Shown here: positions 25,610 through 64,000 of the stretch, one piece after another
Numbering within the stretch: the first letter of the stretch is position 1
Layout of the letters: the number at the start of each line of letters is the position of its first letter
From: Lichenihabitans psoromatis
GTDB taxonomy: Bacteria > Pseudomonadota > Alphaproteobacteria > Rhizobiales > Beijerinckiaceae
Assembly (NCBI RefSeq): GCF_004323635.1
Contig: NZ_CP036515.1
Location: forward strand, 4,581,779 to 4,645,778
Direction: 5' to 3'
Length of the DNA stretch: 64,000 bases
Notes under the pieces: generated by a model
The model's database searches: none
What the model was told of the DNA's origin: nothing
What the model saw: only the letters and a program-made list of their open reading frames with translations
Program-made: the position numbers and the translations under genes

Positions 25610-26464
25610 CTATAATCGCCGAACGCTGGTGATCTCGCCGCTTCCGGCGGCCATGATCCGCGCCCGCGCGTCGGCGAGCGGCTCGGACGCTACCGTCATA
25701 GTGTGGCCGTTGGCATGCAGAAGCGTCATCGGGTTCCGCATGAGGCCGACATGACCCTTCCAGAAGACGAGATCGCCGCGCTTGAACGGGCCATTCAGAT
25801 CGACGGGTGCGCCGAGGCTCCGTTCCTGCATGTCGCTGTCGCGAGGCGTTGGCCGGCCGGTTGAGGCCAGCGCAGTTTGGACAAGGCCGGAGCAATCGAG
25901 GCCCAGGCTGGTCTTGCCGCCCCACAGATAGGGCACACCGAGAAAGCGTTTCGCGACGTCCACGGCATCGCTCTCGAACTGATCGATTGGCCGCAGATGA
26001 CCGGCCCAGATGTATCCACTCTCCACGGCCGCAAAGGCGCCAGCCCGTTCCTGCACCGCAACCTGCGACCCGAAGGCCAACACGCCATCGGCCGGCAACT
26101 TCATGTCCGGACCGGGATAGATGAAGCTCCGAAGCGCCGCGATCTTATGCGTGGCGGCCGCCGGAGCCGTGATGCCGAGCGCCACGGTCGGCAGCCACCC
26201 GACGTAGCCATCCTGTTCGGCCTGCCCCCAGGACCAGCCCTCGGCGTCGGTTTCATAGACCGTGAAAATTTCTCCGAAGAGCAATTCGGTGTCGAGAGAG
26301 AGATCGGGCCGGGGCTCGCGCCGGAGCGGCGTCGACGTGATCGCGACGGCGCGGCGCTCTCCCTCGACGAACCGGTCCGCCTCCACGGTCCCACGCAGAT
26401 GCGCGGCCGCCAGATCCGGGCGGGCCGGGGTGATCCGTCGATCGACGCCCGCGGTGGCGCTCAT
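25610..26464 (-). CDS. NlpC/P60 family peptidoglycan hydrolase with SH3b domains
   Basis: A 284-residue cell-wall endopeptidase of the NlpC/P60 (C40) class. The N-terminal half carries two SH3-like domains (around TELLFGEIFTVYE and GYVGWLPTVALG). The C-terminal catalytic domain (about 165-284) shows the Cys nucleophile in LGLDCSGLVQ and the His in WKGHVGLM. No signal peptide is obvious, so the export route is unclear. ATG at 26464 overlaps the stop of the M17 aminopeptidase gene by 4 bases; a longer open frame inside that gene was rejected. This aminopeptidase-NlpC pair is common in alphaproteobacteria and suggests joint muropeptide processing. Confidence 0.88.
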   Translation of the reverse strand: MSATAGVDRRITPARPDLAAAHLRGTVEADRFVEGERRAVAITSTPLRREPRPDLSLDTELLFGEIFTVYETDAEGWSWGQAEQDGYVGWLPTVALGITAPAAATHKIAALRSFIYPGPDMKLPADGVLAFGSQVAVQERAGAFAAVESGYIWAGHLRPIDQFESDAVDVAKRFLGVPYLWGGKTSLGLDCSGLVQTALASTGRPTPRDSDMQERSLGAPVDLNGPFKRGDLVFWKGHVGLMRNPMTLLHANGHTMTVASEPLADARARIMAAGSGEITSVRRL

Positions 26465-27840
26465 GCCGGGTAGCGTGCGCTGAGGAGATCGAACAGCAAC
26501 CGTGCCGTCTGCGTCTCGCCGCCCTCCGGTCGCCCAGGCTTGGTGGTGGGGTTCCAACCAAAGATATCGAAATGCACCCAAGCCGTATCAGGCTCGACGA
26601 AGCGGCGCAGGAACAGCGCCGCCGTGACCGACCCCGCGAAAGGACCTCCGGAAATATTATTGATCTCGCCGGTCTTCCCCTCGAGCAGCGCGTCATAGGG
26701 CGCCCAGAGCGGCATTCGCCAAACAGGATCGTGGGCCGCCTTGCCGCATCGGGCGATCTCATCCGCGAGCGCATCGTCGTCGGTATAGAACGGTGGCAGA
26801 TCGGGCCCGAGCGCGACGCGCGCCGCCCCGGTCAGGGTCGCGAAATCGAGCAACAGGGCAGGACTTTCCTCGCAAGCCAGCGCCAGCGCATCGGCCAGGA
26901 TCAACCGGCCTTCAGCATCGGTATTGCCGATCTCGACCGTCGGCCCCTTGCGGCTGCGATAGACGTCGCCCGGGCGGAACGCACTGGACGAAATGGCATT
27001 TTCGACAATCGGGACGATGACCCGCAGCCGGATTTTCAACCCGGCATCCATCACCATATGGGCGAGTGCCAAGGCGGTTGCCGCGCCACCCATATCCTTC
27101 TTCATCAGAGCCATACCGCTCTCGGGCTTGATATCGAGACCGCCGGTGTCGAACGTCACGCCTTTGCCGACCAGCGTGACCTTCGGGGCATCCATGGGCC
27201 CCCAGGCGAAATCGACCAGCCTCGGGTGTTCGGCGGCGGCCTGTCCGACCGCGTGGACGAGCGGGAAGCCGGTCCGCAGCATATCGCCACTGAACACCCG
27301 CACCTCTGCGCCGTGCCGCGTCGCAAGCGCGACGGCTGCGGCTTCGAGCGCCTCGGGTCCGAGATCGTTGGCCGGTGTATTGACGAGATCCCGCGCTAAC
27401 GCGACAGCCTCGACGATTCGCTGCAGCCGCGCACCGTCTGTGCCGGTCGGCACGCAGAGCAGCGGACCATCGTCGGTGCGCGACTTATAGCGTGTGAACC
27501 GATAGGCCGACAGCGCCCATCCGAGGGCGGTCAAGCTCGGATCGGGCCAGCCGCCGACGAGTTGGTAGCGACCGGCGGGCAGCAGGGTCGATAAACGACC
27601 GGCGGCAAAGGGGTCAAAGCCCCGCGCCGTCGCGTCTACACTGCCGTAGAGCACACGCCCGATCGCCCCATCGGCTCCCGGCACAATGAGATGAGATCCG
27701 GGCTTCGCCGTGAAGCCAAGGGCCTGAGCAAAGCTTCGCTCGATCGGCTCCAGCGCGTCGGCGAACGCCGGCCACTTATCGGCCAGGACCGCATGGATCG
27801 GGATCGCCTCGGGGTCGGGCGCGGCGAAACTGGCGGGCAT
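26461..27840 (-). CDS. M17 leucyl aminopeptidase family protein
   Basis: A 459-residue cytosolic metallo-aminopeptidase. The metal and catalytic motifs are present: VGKGVTFDTGG (Lys ligand region), KKDMGGAA and NTDAEGRLILADAL (Asp/Glu ligands and catalytic Arg). It is about 40 residues shorter than PepA, and the N-terminal domain is divergent, as in the PepB-like subgroup. It is translationally coupled to the NlpC/P60 gene. ATG at 27840 has AAGGATG immediately upstream. Confidence 0.92.
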   Translation of the reverse strand: MPASFAAPDPEAIPIHAVLADKWPAFADALEPIERSFAQALGFTAKPGSHLIVPGADGAIGRVLYGSVDATARGFDPFAAGRLSTLLPAGRYQLVGGWPDPSLTALGWALSAYRFTRYKSRTDDGPLLCVPTGTDGARLQRIVEAVALARDLVNTPANDLGPEALEAAAVALATRHGAEVRVFSGDMLRTGFPLVHAVGQAAAEHPRLVDFAWGPMDAPKVTLVGKGVTFDTGGLDIKPESGMALMKKDMGGAATALALAHMVMDAGLKIRLRVIVPIVENAISSSAFRPGDVYRSRKGPTVEIGNTDAEGRLILADALALACEESPALLLDFATLTGAARVALGPDLPPFYTDDDALADEIARCGKAAHDPVWRMPLWAPYDALLEGKTGEINNISGGPFAGSVTAALFLRRFVEPDTAWVHFDIFGWNPTTKPGRPEGGETQTARLLFDLLSARYPA

Positions 27841-57370: not shown

Positions 57371-58900
57371 ATGACTTCAGAGCGCTCCGATCGTCCCATC
57401 GATACCATCGCCGACTTGAGCGCGCGGCTCGATCGTCTGCCGGCCACGCGTGCCGTCTGGCAGCTCGCGGTCCTGCTCGGCCTTGGGTTCTTCTTCGAAC
57501 TCTACGACCTTCTGTTCACGGGTTATGTGGCGCCCGGCCTTGTGAAAGCGGGGCTGCTCACAGCGACGACGCCGGGCTTGTTCGGCGCAAGCGGCGTCGC
57601 GAGTTTCGTGGCCGCTCTCTTCACCGGGCTATTTCTCGGCACTCTAGTGTGCGGGTGGCTGGCGGACCGGTTCGGGCGGCGAGCGATGTTCACCTGGTCG
57701 TTGCTGGCCTATACGACCGCCAACGTCATCATGGCCTGTCAAAGGACGGCATTCGGCCTGAACACCTGGCGCCTCATCGCCGGACTTGGGCTTGGGCTCG
57801 AGATGGTGACGATCGGCAGCTACTTGTCGGAGTTGATGCCGAAAGCAATTCGCAGCCGCGCCTTCGCGCTGTGCCAGGGCATCGGGTTCGTGGCCGTGCC
57901 GGTCGTGGCTTTCTTGTCCTATCTGCTGATTCCGACAGCACCGTTCGGCGTGGATGGATGGCGTTGGGTTGTCCTGATCGGCGCGTCGGCGGCCCTTCCG
58001 GTCTGGTGGCTGCGGGTCGGGCTTCCGGAAAGTCCACGCTGGCTCGCCGAGCGTGGGCGGTTGGCTGAAGCGGAAGCGGTCGTGACCCGGCTCGAAACGA
58101 TTGTCGAGGCCGAATATGGACGCCCGCTGCCGCCGCCGCAGAGGATCGAGCCGGTCCAGACGCGTCGACGCCTGCGCGACCTTTGGCATGCACCTTACCG
58201 TCGTCGGATCGTGATGATGGCCGGCTTCAACGTGTTTCAGACCGTCGGGTTCTACGGCTTCGCCAATTGGGTGCCGACGCTGCTGGTCGCGCAAGGCATC
58301 ACGGTCACGTCGAGCCTCGCCTATACGGCCCTGATCGCCCTCGCGGCGCCTGTCGGGCCGCTCATTGGCCTGATGATCGCCGATCGTTTCGAGAACAAAC
58401 ACGTCATCGTTGCGGCCGCGATTGTCTATATCGCCTGCGGGCTGCTGTTCGCCGAAACACGCAACATCGTGACGATCGTGCCGCTCGGCATCGGGCTGAC
58501 GCTCGCCAGCAACGTGATGTCCTACAGCTACCACGCCTATCAAGCCGAGCTGTTCCCGACCACGATGCGGGCGCGGGCGGTCGGCTTCGTCTATTCGTGG
58601 AGCCGCTTCTCGGCGATTTTCACGGGGTTCATCATCGCCTTCGTGCTCCGCACGGCCGGGGTCCCCGGCGTGTTCTTGTTCATCTCGGGCGCCATGCTGG
58701 CTGCGGGTCGCTGGTCGGCCTTCTGGGTCCCAGAACCCGCAACACCGCTCTCGAGCAGATCGCTGCGTGACAGAGTTGCGTGCCGGACCGGCAGACGTGC
58801 TGCCGACCGGCCGGGGACGCCTTCAAGCACCCCGTTTGTCCCTCAGGCCGCTGCGTCGGTCTCGGCACGTTCCGTCATCTGCTTGGCGAGGCCGACGTAA
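57371..58900 (+). CDS. MFS transporter (sugar/aromatic-acid:H+ type), probably frameshifted near its 3' end
   Basis: The literal reading frame encodes 509 residues, but the last 60 look non-native. The first 445 or so show 12 membrane helices with FFFELYDLLFTGYVAPGLV, LADRFGRRA and GLPESPRWLAERGR, the pattern of metabolite:H+ symporters. At 58705-58707 (GGG) the homology moves to another frame that gives SLVGLLGPRTRN and ends at 58770 with TALEQIAA, the expected C-terminus. One missing G there explains it. The corrected gene is 57371-58770. Substrate unknown. ATG at 57371 follows GGAGAG; the frame is open to 57275. Confidence 0.85.
   Translation: MTSERSDRPIDTIADLSARLDRLPATRAVWQLAVLLGLGFFFELYDLLFTGYVAPGLVKAGLLTATTPGLFGASGVASFVAALFTGLFLGTLVCGWLADRFGRRAMFTWSLLAYTTANVIMACQRTAFGLNTWRLIAGLGLGLEMVTIGSYLSELMPKAIRSRAFALCQGIGFVAVPVVAFLSYLLIPTAPFGVDGWRWVVLIGASAALPVWWLRVGLPESPRWLAERGRLAEAEAVVTRLETIVEAEYGRPLPPPQRIEPVQTRRRLRDLWHAPYRRRIVMMAGFNVFQTVGFYGFANWVPTLLVAQGITVTSSLAYTALIALAAPVGPLIGLMIADRFENKHVIVAAAIVYIACGLLFAETRNIVTIVPLGIGLTLASNVMSYSYHAYQAELFPTTMRARAVGFVYSWSRFSAIFTGFIIAFVLRTAGVPGVFLFISGAMLAAGRWSAFWVPEPATPLSSRSLRDRVACRTGRRAADRPGTPSSTPFVPQAAASVSARSVICLARPT
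58782..58811. terminator. Imperfect hairpin between convergent MFS and aas genes
   Basis: GCCGGACCGGCAG pairs with CTGCCGACCGGC around a short loop, with one bulge. It lies in the 72-base gap that exists once both frameshifts are corrected (58771-58842), where a bidirectional terminator is expected. No T run. Confidence 0.4.
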
Positions 58901-61900
58901 TCGACCTTGCCCGAGCCGAGCACCGGCAGCCTCTCCACGACGACGACCTCGGACGGCACCACAAGATCGGCAGCGCCCTTTCGCTTGGCATAGGCCGAAA
59001 ATCCTGCCGGGTCGCCCCGCTCTGCTGCGTGACGAGAACCAGCCGTTCCCCCTTGCGAGGATCGGGCTCGGCTACGACGGCCGTCGGCACGTCGGGCCAG
59101 AGGTCATGCGCCAAGGCCTCGATGGCGGCCAGAGACACCATTTCGCCGCCAATCTTGGCGAAGCGCTTGGCACGGCCCTTGATAGTAGTGAATCCCTCCG
59201 GGTCGATCGCCACGATATCGCCGGTGTCGTACCAGCCGTCCTCGGGCGGTTGCAGCACACCGGGCTGATCGTGTTTCAAATAGCCCAGCATGATGTTCGG
59301 GCCACGAAGATGGAGCCGACCGCCGTCATCGATGCCCGGCACCGCTTCCAGCCGGACGTCGATGCCGGGCAGAATACGGCCGACAGTCCCGAATTTATTG
59401 AACATCGGCGTATTGAGCGCAACGGCCGGCGCGGCCTCGGTGATGCCGTAGCCTTCGAGGATCCGGAGGCCGAACTTCTCCATCCAGACCTTCCGGGTCG
59501 CATCTTTCACGGGCTCGGCCCCCGCGAGAACGTAGCGGAGCGAGCGGAAGTCATAGGGGTTGGCCACCCGCGCATAGCCGGCCAGGAACGTATCGGTGCC
59601 GAACAGGAGGGTGGCGTTGGACCCGTAGACGAGTTCCGGCACCATCCGGTAATGCAGCGGCGACGGGTAGAGATAGACCGGGACGCCCGAGACGAGCGGC
59701 AGCACCAGCCCAACCGTCAGGCCGAAGGAATGGAACACCGGCAGGACGTTGAAGAATTTGTCGGACCGGCCGAAATCGATCCGCGCCTCGGCCTGGGCCG
59801 TGTTGACCAGCATGTTTCGATGCGACAGGACCACGCCTTTCGGCGTGCCCTCCGATCCCGACGTGAACAGGATCACGGCCGGGTCGTCCGGTAAGCGCGC
59901 GACCAGCGGCCGGCGCGGCGCCGCGAGGGCCCTGAGCTTATCGACCAGAGACAGGTCCTTCCGGAGATCCTCGAGATAGACAATGCGGACGCTGGCCTGC
60001 AGCGATGCGATCAGCTTGTCGAGCCGCCCCTTTTCGATAAAGGCGCGCGAGGTCACGATGCTGGTGACGCCCGCCATCGTGCAGGCGGCGGTGACCGCCG
60101 TGGCCCCCGCCGTGAAGTTGATCATGGCGGGAACGCGCCCAGCCGAACTGACGGCCAGCAGCGTCACGGCCGCCGCATTGGAACTCGGCAGCAAAACGCC
60201 GATGGCCTCGCCGGGCTTCGCCAAGGCCGTCATCTTGCGGGCGAAGAGATGCACACCGGTCATCAGCTTGCGATAGGTCAGGATGCCGGTGACCGGGTCT
60301 TCGAGCGCAACGCGGCTCCACCCCTGCTTGTCACCCGCCTCGGCCACGGCCTCGACCAGGGTCCGATCGGTGCGGGTCGTATGGAAGATCAGATCCGACA
60401 TCACGCCATAGAGCGCCGCACCCGCCGCATGGCGTCGCGCCCGGCCCTTCAAATTGTCGTCGACGGTGAGACGAACGGCCGGCAGCATCGTGACCACGAC
60501 CTTTGGGAACCAGCGCCGACGAACCTGGGCGCGGCTCAAGCGCGAGAACATCGTCTGTTCGAGGCCATGGATCCGGACCGGCACCACCATGGCGCCCGAC
60601 TTTTCGGCAATCATCCCAGCGCCGTCATAAACCTTCATCAGGCTGCCGGTCACGGTCAGGCGGCCTTCTGGGAAGATCACCAACGTGTCGCCGCCCCGCA
60701 CCGCATTGATGAGGCTGCGGGTCGCGAGCGGGCGAGCGGGATCGAGCGGCAAGGCTCGGGTGAAGCGCAGGAACGGCTTGACCCACCACCGTTGCGCGAT
60801 CCCGTGGTCGATCGCGAAAATCGGGTTGGTCGGCAGGATCGACAAAGCCAACGCGGCATCGAGGAAGCTGACGTGGTTGAGTGCGATGATGGGGTTTGGG
60901 CCGGCCGCGTCGAGATGTTCGAGCCCATGCGTCTCCAGCCGGTAGACCACGCGGAACAGGATCGAGATGGCATCGTGCATCGGGTTGGTCGGCAGAATGC
61001 GGATGATCCAGGCGGCCGCAAGCAACGCGAGTGCGCCGATCCCGGCAAACAACATCGGCAGAGTGACGCCGGCGCCTTGCAGCGCAGCCACCACGACGGC
61101 CGATACGACCATGAAGGCGGCGTTCAACACGTTGACGGCCGCAACGGCCCGCGCGCGCCAGGCCGGATCGGCCCAGACCTGCAAGGCGGCGAAGGACGGC
61201 ACGATCATAAGGCCGCCGCCGATCGCCACGATCGCGAGGTCGATGGCGGTGTGCCAGGCGATCGCCTGATCGAAGAAGGTGGCGGGTGCAAGGAGGTCGC
61301 CTGGGGTGACGGGTGGCAGATGCGCGATGGCCCAGGCGAGATCGAGGGAGGCCACCCCGATCAGCACGGTGCCCACGACGACCGGCAGGAAGACGACGCG
61401 TCCCCCCGACAGCCAGGAGGCGAGGCCCGAGCCGACCGCGATCGCAACCGCAAAGACCGCGAGATAGATCGTGACCACGATCTCGGACCCGTGCAGGACG
61501 TGGCTGACGAGCGGTGCGAGAAGCGACAGCATTACGGCGCCGACCGCCCAGAAGATGCTGGTGATAATGCCGCAGCGCCAGAGGCGCGGCTCCGACCAGA
61601 GTTCGCGCAGCAGGCGTGCGGTCGATCGGACGACATTGTAATCGAGCGAGAGGCCGGGCGAGGCTGCCGCGGTTTTCGGGATCAGCAGGCTGCTGACCCA
61701 GCAGAGCACTCCGACGATCAGCATGCTGACGGTCAGAATGGCCGGATGCACGCCGTCTTTCATGGCGAGGCCGCCCGCGATCGTGCCGGCCAGGATCGCC
61801 AGAAACGTTGCGCCTTCGACAAGGGCGTTACCGGCCGGCAGCTCCTCGCGGTCGAGATGGTCGGGCAGGATGCCGTATTTCAGCGGTCCGAACAGCGCCC

Positions 61901-62243
61901 CGAAGGTGCCGAAGGCCAGCAGCGCGGCGAATAGGACGGGAACCGATTGCAGCCAGAAGCCGACGACGGCGAGGATCGCGGCTCCGATTTCGGCCAGCTT
62001 GAGCCGGCGCGCCACGAGCGATTTATCGAAGCGATCGGCCAGTTGGCCACCGAAGGCCGAAAAGAGAAAGAACGGCGCCATCAGGGCGGCACCGGCCAGC
62101 GTCACCAGCGATTCGGCGCCGCCAACGCGGAACAGGATCAGGAACACGACGGCATTCTTGAGGACGTTGTCGTTGAAGGCCGACAGAAACTGGCACCAGA
62201 ACAAGGGTGCGAAGCGCCGCGACGTCATAAGCGATTGCGACAT
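58875..62243 (-). CDS. aas: LplT-PlsC-Aas fusion: acyl-[ACP]-phospholipid O-acyltransferase, frameshifted at its 3' end
   Basis: 1122 residues as read. Three parts: an MFS-type lysophospholipid flippase (about 1-415, starting FAPLFWCQFLSAFNDNVLKN), a PlsC acyltransferase (about 430-620, with NHVSFLDAAL and FPEGRLTVTG), and an acyl-AMP ligase (about 640 on, with VILFTSGSEGTPKG and GYGITEAAP). Together they take up and re-acylate lysophospholipids. The last 40 residues as read are Ser/Arg-rich nonsense. In the next frame, after the A run at 58998-59001, the sequence gives VPSEVVVVERLPVLGSGKVD and stops at 58843, the normal C-terminus. One base is missing. ATG at 62243 is used; the frame is open to 62495. 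Confidence 0.9.
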   Translation of the reverse strand: MSQSLMTSRRFAPLFWCQFLSAFNDNVLKNAVVFLILFRVGGAESLVTLAGAALMAPFFLFSAFGGQLADRFDKSLVARRLKLAEIGAAILAVVGFWLQSVPVLFAALLAFGTFGALFGPLKYGILPDHLDREELPAGNALVEGATFLAILAGTIAGGLAMKDGVHPAILTVSMLIVGVLCWVSSLLIPKTAAASPGLSLDYNVVRSTARLLRELWSEPRLWRCGIITSIFWAVGAVMLSLLAPLVSHVLHGSEIVVTIYLAVFAVAIAVGSGLASWLSGGRVVFLPVVVGTVLIGVASLDLAWAIAHLPPVTPGDLLAPATFFDQAIAWHTAIDLAIVAIGGGLMIVPSFAALQVWADPAWRARAVAAVNVLNAAFMVVSAVVVAALQGAGVTLPMLFAGIGALALLAAAWIIRILPTNPMHDAISILFRVVYRLETHGLEHLDAAGPNPIIALNHVSFLDAALALSILPTNPIFAIDHGIAQRWWVKPFLRFTRALPLDPARPLATRSLINAVRGGDTLVIFPEGRLTVTGSLMKVYDGAGMIAEKSGAMVVPVRIHGLEQTMFSRLSRAQVRRRWFPKVVVTMLPAVRLTVDDNLKGRARRHAAGAALYGVMSDLIFHTTRTDRTLVEAVAEAGDKQGWSRVALEDPVTGILTYRKLMTGVHLFARKMTALAKPGEAIGVLLPSSNAAAVTLLAVSSAGRVPAMINFTAGATAVTAACTMAGVTSIVTSRAFIEKGRLDKLIASLQASVRIVYLEDLRKDLSLVDKLRALAAPRRPLVARLPDDPAVILFTSGSEGTPKGVVLSHRNMLVNTAQAEARIDFGRSDKFFNVLPVFHSFGLTVGLVLPLVSGVPVYLYPSPLHYRMVPELVYGSNATLLFGTDTFLAGYARVANPYDFRSLRYVLAGAEPVKDATRKVWMEKFGLRILEGYGITEAAPAVALNTPMFNKFGTVGRILPGIDVRLEAVPGIDDGGRLHLRGPNIMLGYLKHDQPGVLQPPEDGWYDTGDIVAIDPEGFTTIKGRAKRFAKIGGEMVSLAAIEALAHDLWPDVPTAVVAEPDPRKGERLVLVTQQSGATRQDFRPMPSERALPILWCRPRSSSWRGCRCSARARSITSASPSR

Positions 62244-62406
62244 GGGCTGCTCTCGGGAAAGGCCTGGACCGAGCGCCGCGATCGATGCATCGACCTGGCG
62301 CTCGGGCAGAGCGTGCCCGAAAAGGCTTAAGCGGATGCGCCGCCACCGTCCAGAGCGCGGCGGCTGGCCGCTCTGGATGGGAAGCAGCGTCGGGGGACGA
62401 TCTGGC

Positions 62407-63017
62407 TCAGGCCGCCGACATGGCGGCAATGGTCTGCTCGGCCGAAGCAATCGCCTTGGCTTTGGTCTCGTCACCCATGGCGAGACCTTCGGCACGAACG
62501 ATCTCGATATCGGGCAGACCGATGAAGCCGAACACGCCCCGGAGATAGGCTTCCTGATGGTCCATGGCGGTCATCGGGCCGTCCGAATAGGCGCCGCCAC
62601 GCGACGAAGCGACGATGACGCGCCGGCCTCCCGCCAGACCTTCGACGCCGGTCGCCGTATAGCGGAATGTCTTGCCGGCGACGAGCAAGCGATCGATCCA
62701 GGCTTTCAGTGGCTCGGGATGGCAAAATTATACATCGGCGCGCCGATCACGACCACATCGGCGGTCATGAAGTCTTCCAGAGCGGCTTCGCTTGAGGCGA
62801 GATCCTCCTGCAGGGCCGGGCTGTGTTGGCCAGCGGCCGCCTGGGCCGCGCCGAGATACGCGCCGGACAAATGCGCGATCGGGGTCGCGGCCAAGTCGCG
62901 GGTCGTGACCGTGACGTCGGGATGCGCCTCGCGCAGCTTGGCCACGATGCCTGCCGACAGGCGACGGCTGACCGAGTTATCGCCGAGAATGCTGGAATCG
63001 ATATGCAGGAGTTTCAT
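62407..63017 (-). pseudogene. azoR: FMN-dependent NADH azoreductase AzoR, one frameshift (probable sequence error)
   Basis: Flavodoxin-fold NADH:quinone/azo oxidoreductase of about 203 residues, split in two frames. The 5' part (ATG at 63017) gives [28 protein letters not shown] and [11 protein letters not shown], then hits a stop at 62706. The 3' part in another frame continues [27 protein letters not shown] and GFIGLPDIEIVRAEG to the stop at 62407. One base missing at 62709/62710 joins them exactly (expected ...IPSQLKAWIDR). Divergent from an HxlR regulator, the usual arrangement for redox-inducible azoreductases. Confidence 0.85.
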
Positions 63018-63057
63018 GGGACACGCCGATGCAAGAGAACGCTGATGATATAAAAGC

Positions 63058-63070
63058 GTAACCAAGTTAT
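63058..63070. promoter_or_regulatory. Candidate HxlR operator between azoR and the regulator gene
   Basis: GTAACCAAGTTAT contains TAAC-CAA-GTTA, a short inverted repeat centred in the 92-base divergent intergenic region. HxlR-family regulators bind such palindromes near their own promoters. The match is short and no family consensus is fixed. Confidence 0.3.
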
Positions 63071-63109
63071 CTTCCGTGCCTATGGGGCGCGCCGCAAGGA
63101 GGCACATCT

Positions 63110-63549
63110 TTGGAACCCAGTCACAGCATGTGCCCACGCACTGCAGCGGCGTTGCTCCCGTTCTGGCCCGGATCGGGGATAATGGAGCATTCTGGTCGTC
63201 ATGATGCTGGGCAACGGCCCGCTTCGCTTTAACGAACTGCGGCGACAGGTCGGCGGCATCTCGCAGCGGATGCTGACCCTGACGGTGCGGGGTTTGGAGC
63301 GGGACGGTTCGTCAGCCGCACTGTCACGCCGACGATTCCACCACGCGTCGATTACGAGCTCACCCCCCTCGGTCGGTCGCTACAGAGCCGGTGCAGCACC
63401 TCGGGCGATGGGCGATCGCCAATCTCGACGCGATCGCGACCGCACAACGGAAGTTCGACGACGCGACCAAGAACGAGCCGATCCTGTTCAAGATTCTCGG
63501 AACGGCCGCGCCCCGGCCCGCCACTGCGCCGCAAGCCTTAGAAAATTAG
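63110..63549 (+). pseudogene. HxlR-family winged-helix regulator, four frameshifts (probable sequence errors)
   Basis: No single frame encodes the protein, but stitching frames gives a complete HxlR regulator of about 147 residues. It has the conserved Cys-Pro start (SMCPRTAA), [41 protein letters not shown], then PRVDYELTPLGRSL and GRWAIANLDAI. Single bases are missing near 63154, 63183, 63306 and 63385. TTG at 63110 has AAGGAGG seven bases upstream; ATG at 63128 is an alternative. HxlR proteins such as YodB sense quinones or electrophiles through the N-terminal Cys and repress divergent azoreductase genes, which fits azoR here. Confidence 0.8.
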
Positions 63550-64000
63550 CCAACAGGGCGTGACCGCCCTCGGTGAAACAGATTCAGGGTGGAATTGGAC
63601 CCCCACGGTTACAGTGTCCCGATGCGCCAGCGCCATGATCTCTCCGGACGACGAGCGTGCCGTCACACGGAGTGGGCTCGTCTCGACCTGATCGATCTCG
63701 ACGATCAGCGCATGATACCGCCCCGCCATGACGGGGTTCGGGAGTCCTCGAATAGACCGTCCCCGTCATGCGTGATGGCGAGGCGCGCCCGTGCATCGGC
63801 TCGCCGGCCCGCACCACGCGCGCGCCGAACGCCTGCCCGATACATTGATGCCGAGGCAAATGCCGAGGATCGGCAGATGGCCGTTGAAACGCGCGATCAA
63901 ATCCAGCGACGCGCCCGCTGCTCGGGGCCGCATGGGCCCGGAGAGATCACCAACGCGTCACAGCCTGACGCTTCGACCCGGCGGCGTCGATCGCGTCGTT
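63538..64000 (-). pseudogene. TrpG/PabA-type glutamine amidotransferase, cut by window end, at least six frameshifts (probable sequence errors)
   Basis: Class I glutamine amidotransferase pieced together from several frames. SPGPCGPEQ and LPILGICLGHQCIGQAFGA (Cys nucleophile in GICLGHQ) lie between 63960 and 63820. GEPMHGRAS, HDGDGLFE and AGRYHALIVE follow, then VGVQFHPESV and EGGHALLANF with the His-x-Glu pair of the triad. SPGPC and HG.AS..HDG mark the anthranilate/aminodeoxychorismate synthase glutaminase group (TrpG or PabA); the two cannot be separated without the missing N-terminus and partner gene. Missing bases lie near 63978, 63915, 63850, 63777, 63744 and 63576. It is convergent with the HxlR gene. 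Confidence 0.75.

Follow-up and report, generated by a model that had tools for sequence, protein, structure and literature searches.

Low-quality contig ends, and the trimming of overlaps, are described for long-read assemblies of circular replicons in passages of the Circlator paper (PMC4699355). For the Geobacter pickeringii genome the overlap was trimmed and two rounds of Quiver were then run to remove remaining indels (PMC4358379), and a further paper describes how indel errors of long-read assemblies create false frameshifts (PMC6807382). Here we examine the right end of a 64,000-nucleotide stretch of the Lichenihabitans psoromatis genome (the window; contig NZ_CP036515.1, called C1 below), where a first-pass annotation had reported frame changes in five consecutive genes, encoding an MFS transporter, an Aas-type protein, an AzoR-like protein, an HxlR-family regulator and a TrpG/PabA-like protein. 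Alignments with relatives do show breaks in each of the five. We conclude that these breaks are very probably an assembly artefact, the trace of an unpolished circularisation seam, present in the deposited sequence but not in the organism, a reading to which we assign a probability of about 0.97.

The procedure in the Circlator account would give contigs that start clean and end poorly, as in this genome, although its passages on contig ends do not describe the run of frameshifted genes seen here. Compared with the G. pickeringii assembly, polishing looks to have been missing, or to have failed, at the seam. Both the kind of error and its effect on genes are like those treated in PMC6807382, but the errors here are concentrated at contig ends.

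The genome consists of three contigs, C1 (4,645,778 bases), C2 (152,258 bases) and C3 (38,445 bases); the window spans C1:4581779-4645778, and its right edge therefore coincides with the final base of C1. This contig is circular, with its opening point within pabA, because PabA runs exactly from window position 64000 into C1:1, with pabB adjoining, as in the same-genus genome G004, where pabB and pabA are unsplit and in the same gene order. PabA residues 1-30 are encoded without a break by C1:90-1 on the minus strand, residue 30 lying at C1:1 and residue 31 starting at window base 64000, which marks the linearisation seam. The adjoining pabB (C1:1505-87, minus strand; Pfam Chorismate_bind and Anth_synt_I_N) shows no breaks in 458 aligned codons. 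Codons 31-191, at the window end, hold six breaks in 161 codons, and the breaks in pabA are thus on the tail side only. The first-pass annotation, made without knowledge that a contig ends here, had proposed a poorly polished or low-coverage contig end; this interpretation is supported, low coverage itself is something that we infer, and the contig end can be specified further as the opening point of a closed circular chromosome.

Breaks were located by aligning the intact proteins of relatives with a purpose-written, FASTX-like, frameshift-aware aligner, a type of check that the first-pass annotation had itself proposed for AzoR, HxlR and PabA. Twelve of the thirteen breaks it listed were confirmed, each no more than about 10 bases from the place given (one each in the MFS, Aas-type and AzoR-like genes, three in the HxlR gene and six in pabA), and one, near 63154, was not. 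All 12 run in the direction of a one-base loss, in agreement with the earlier observation that each is repaired by one added base, and no in-frame stops occur along the aligned paths, as had also been noted. The claimed rise in density towards the window end is likewise borne out, with two breaks at 58.7-59.0 kb, one at 62.7 kb and nine within the last 0.82 kb. Runs of at least three equal bases lie within 9 bases of 10 of 13 break places (the ambiguous place in the HxlR gene included), against 49% of random places, which is a weak signal.

The damage is densest in pabA (63509..64000, minus strand, from codon 31 on, codons 1-30 lying outside the window), which was aligned with G004 PabA and five further relatives. 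Breaks at 63574-63577, 63744-63750, 63776-63782, 63850 and 63918 were each found with all six, and that at 63956-63977 with four of six, the remaining two alignments beginning beyond it. The HxlR-family gene (63103..63480, plus strand; Pfam HxlR) is broken at 63183, 63308 and 63382-63388, each with 8/8 relatives. Its N-terminal part is ambiguous: at the standard penalty the alignments start at 63103-63151 and reach 63183 unshifted in all eight, with no break near 63154; only at the lowest penalty did shifts appear, in the deletion direction for one relative and in the opposite direction for two. A 10-residue match in another frame at 63095-63124 is weak (E 0.3), and from these faint and disagreeing signs the upstream stretch 63095-63142 may be faulty too. 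Extra events in the low-penalty HxlR alignments were not common to the relatives and were excluded. In the AzoR-like flavodoxin-fold gene (62407..63017, minus strand) the single break at 62709-62712 appears with 5/5 relatives, and the Pfam Flavodoxin_2 match is split accordingly, with profile positions 1-94 and 104-195 lying in successive frames.

Further from the seam, the Aas-type gene (58843..62243, minus strand; MFS, acyltransferase and AMP-binding domains by Pfam) is broken once, at 58995-59007 close to the 3' end, with 11/11 relatives over the C-terminal 230 residues and with 5/5 at full length; no other break was common to the five full-length relatives. One relative of the 11 adds an opposite shift near 58862, and one of the five adds two shifts upstream of the start codon. 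The named loci nearest in this gene are mostly from Hyphomicrobiales, for example Alsobacter, Microvirga, Methylobacterium and Bosea. The MFS transporter gene (57371..58770, plus strand; Pfam Sugar_tr / MFS_1) has one break near 58696 with 2/2 close relatives, both of which align through to 58764, beside the second frame's stop codon. With a more distant open reading frame (ORF), 41% identical, the shift falls at 58736 and in the opposite direction. When identity on both flanks of each break was tested, AzoR passed in 5/5 cases, HxlR in 20/21 (7 relatives), PabA in 30/34 (6 relatives) and Aas in 10/11, and the MFS break failed in 2/2, narrowly, with 40% identity past the break.

If the whole assembly were poor, the window end would merely be a sample of it. 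As controls we compared 70 genes (23,713 aligned codons), each tested against one relative, with references filtered by a hidden Markov model (HMM). Fifty of them come from the C1 interior and six from the first 40 kb of that contig; the part of the window before 58.6 kb contributes nine, C2 four and C3 one. Scattered events do occur in them: the aligner reported 14, of which 13 remained on a recount with wider flanks and six passed the identity test on both flanks. However, this is a rate of some 0.5 per 1000 codons, whereas the genes from AzoR to PabA have 10 breaks in about 480, and by our reading of the alignments most of the control events fall beyond the gene itself, chiefly upstream of the true start. 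The terminal breaks exceed chance. A generally poor assembly, to which a seemingly broken transposase-like gene on C3 could also be credited, is on this evidence very unlikely. That gene, at about 9800, which holds one of the control events, looks truly frameshifted and may be a naturally broken insertion sequence. Longest-ORF references had served for a first control (24 candidates, 23 alignments), but shadow ORFs contaminated it, and it was replaced and excluded from the counts; tblastn without composition correction likewise returned GC-rich shadow frames as noise.

A reference-free frame model gave a second view of the background, and proved useful once its prior was relaxed and interior chunks served as the control. 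Across the last 6 kb it called 6 (C1), 11 (C2) and 8 (C3) shifts, where the first 6 kb gave 2, 1 and 2; 40 interior chunks averaged 1.7 with a maximum of 5 (gene overlaps included), which further argues against errors spread through the assembly. This frame HMM was trained on the first 50 kb of the window together with stretches L006, L007, L112, L113, L008 and L110, so that C2 stretches are included in the training and the 40 interior chunks are not. With a strict prior of 1e-6 it called 58739 (the MFS break) and 59001, plus an unconfirmed shift at 62409, and with a prior of 1e-9 none of the terminal breaks was called. Its sole strict call in the window, 26481, is an overlap of two genes, and the interior calls probably include other such ordinary overlaps. 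The two genes concerned, both on the minus strand at 25610-27840 and peptidase-like and NlpC/P60-like by ORF reading, share about 120 bases, an overlap that looks like a frameshift to the model.

The other two contigs are damaged in like manner at their ends, there with a few opposite-direction shifts. On C2 the seam cuts an ABC-ATPase gene, whose part at the contig start has no breaks over about 365 codons (9/9 relatives) and whose part at the contig end has three (five relatives) or four (four relatives) deletion-direction breaks in roughly the last 270 bases of the contig; the two alignment sides stop two to four residues apart at the seam. The end of the contig was thus found to run on into its start in both contigs examined for this, C1 through pabA and C2 through the ATPase. 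With each of four relatives the preceding gene, by our reading a putative BMP-like binding protein although Pfam found no family on the tested piece, shows seven breaks, six of them in the deletion direction and one in the opposite, and across nine loci it shows 6-9. Together with the first part of the ATPase gene it makes up the damaged end of C2, at 18480-20000 of L110 (C2:132259-152258). At the C3 end (16700-20000 of L111, C3:18446-38445) a glycosyltransferase gene has three breaks 3.2-2.1 kb from the contig end with 4/4 long relatives. Two of these run in the deletion direction and one in the opposite, and one relative adds two breaks with poor flanks. By frame model score only, the last 1.7 kb of C3 look broken too. 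We disregarded several low-scoring shadow-frame alignments at the start of C2 and the end of C3.

Another explanation would be real decay, in which the five neighbouring genes would be pseudogenes that gained one-base deletions in the organism. The breaks do occur in the deposited sequence, and an intact TrpG/PabA-like paralogue elsewhere on C1 means that loss of pabA need not be lethal; but the damage peaks and ends mid-gene at an arbitrary cut (pabA on C1, the ATPase on C2), all 12 window lesions go one way with no in-frame stops, 54-70% identity is kept on both sides, and three replicons are affected at their ends. Neither the mixed lesions nor the relaxed conservation expected of pseudogenes was found; larger losses were not separately searched for. 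Because three contig ends and unrelated genes on both strands are involved, with damage that climbs to a maximum at an arbitrary cut while the rest of the cut gene is clean, the breaks are a property of the assembly, and we regard decay as extremely unlikely. A naturally linear C1, with a degenerate telomere at this end, would fit damage at a contig end, but is vanishingly improbable given that pabA reads from the last base of the contig into its first with pabB adjoining, and that the C2 ATPase likewise bridges end and start. The paralogue mentioned above lies at C1:3842829-3843389, is 52% identical to G004 PabA, and is near a TrpE-like gene at C1:3839297.

An unpolished circularisation seam could have arisen as follows. 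The circular chromosome and two further replicons would have been assembled, probably from error-prone long reads, with each contig tail built from ever fewer reads, so that one-base losses were left uncorrected, reaching roughly one in every 80 bases at the C1 end. Circularisation would then have removed the duplicated head copy and kept the poor tail, and the seam would have gone without effective re-polishing, which would leave the contig clean at its start, damaged at its end and joined within pabA.

Several observations weigh against this account. Read coverage is not shown, and a falling depth is only what we infer. An untrimmed overlap between end and start was sought and not found, which is expected once trimming has taken place yet is no proof of it. 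The margin of C1 in the frame model is narrow, six shifts against the interior maximum of five, and one of those six, at 62409, matches no confirmed break. The C2 and C3 ends carry opposite-direction shifts as well as losses. One-sidedness, finally, is imperfect on C3: at its start a glycosyltransferase gene is split over two frames, with one probable break at about base 1540, so that damage may affect both ends of this small contig.

It is possible, though we hold it only tentatively and know it from this genome alone, that a one-sided ramp of one-base losses at a seam is a recurrent, recognisable signature of head-trimming circularisation, one that seeds false pseudogenes and gene absences in reference databases. 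A seam of this kind can be tested for without reads, by looking for a gene that crosses from the last to the first base of a contig with one part clean and the other broken, which separates artefact from true decay. Annotated as deposited, pabA, the HxlR regulator gene, azoR, aas and the MFS gene would be called pseudogenes, and likewise the genes at the other two contig ends. In our view nothing biological is left to explain: the genes at the window end are most likely not dead, and no pseudogene annotation should be based on this sequence.
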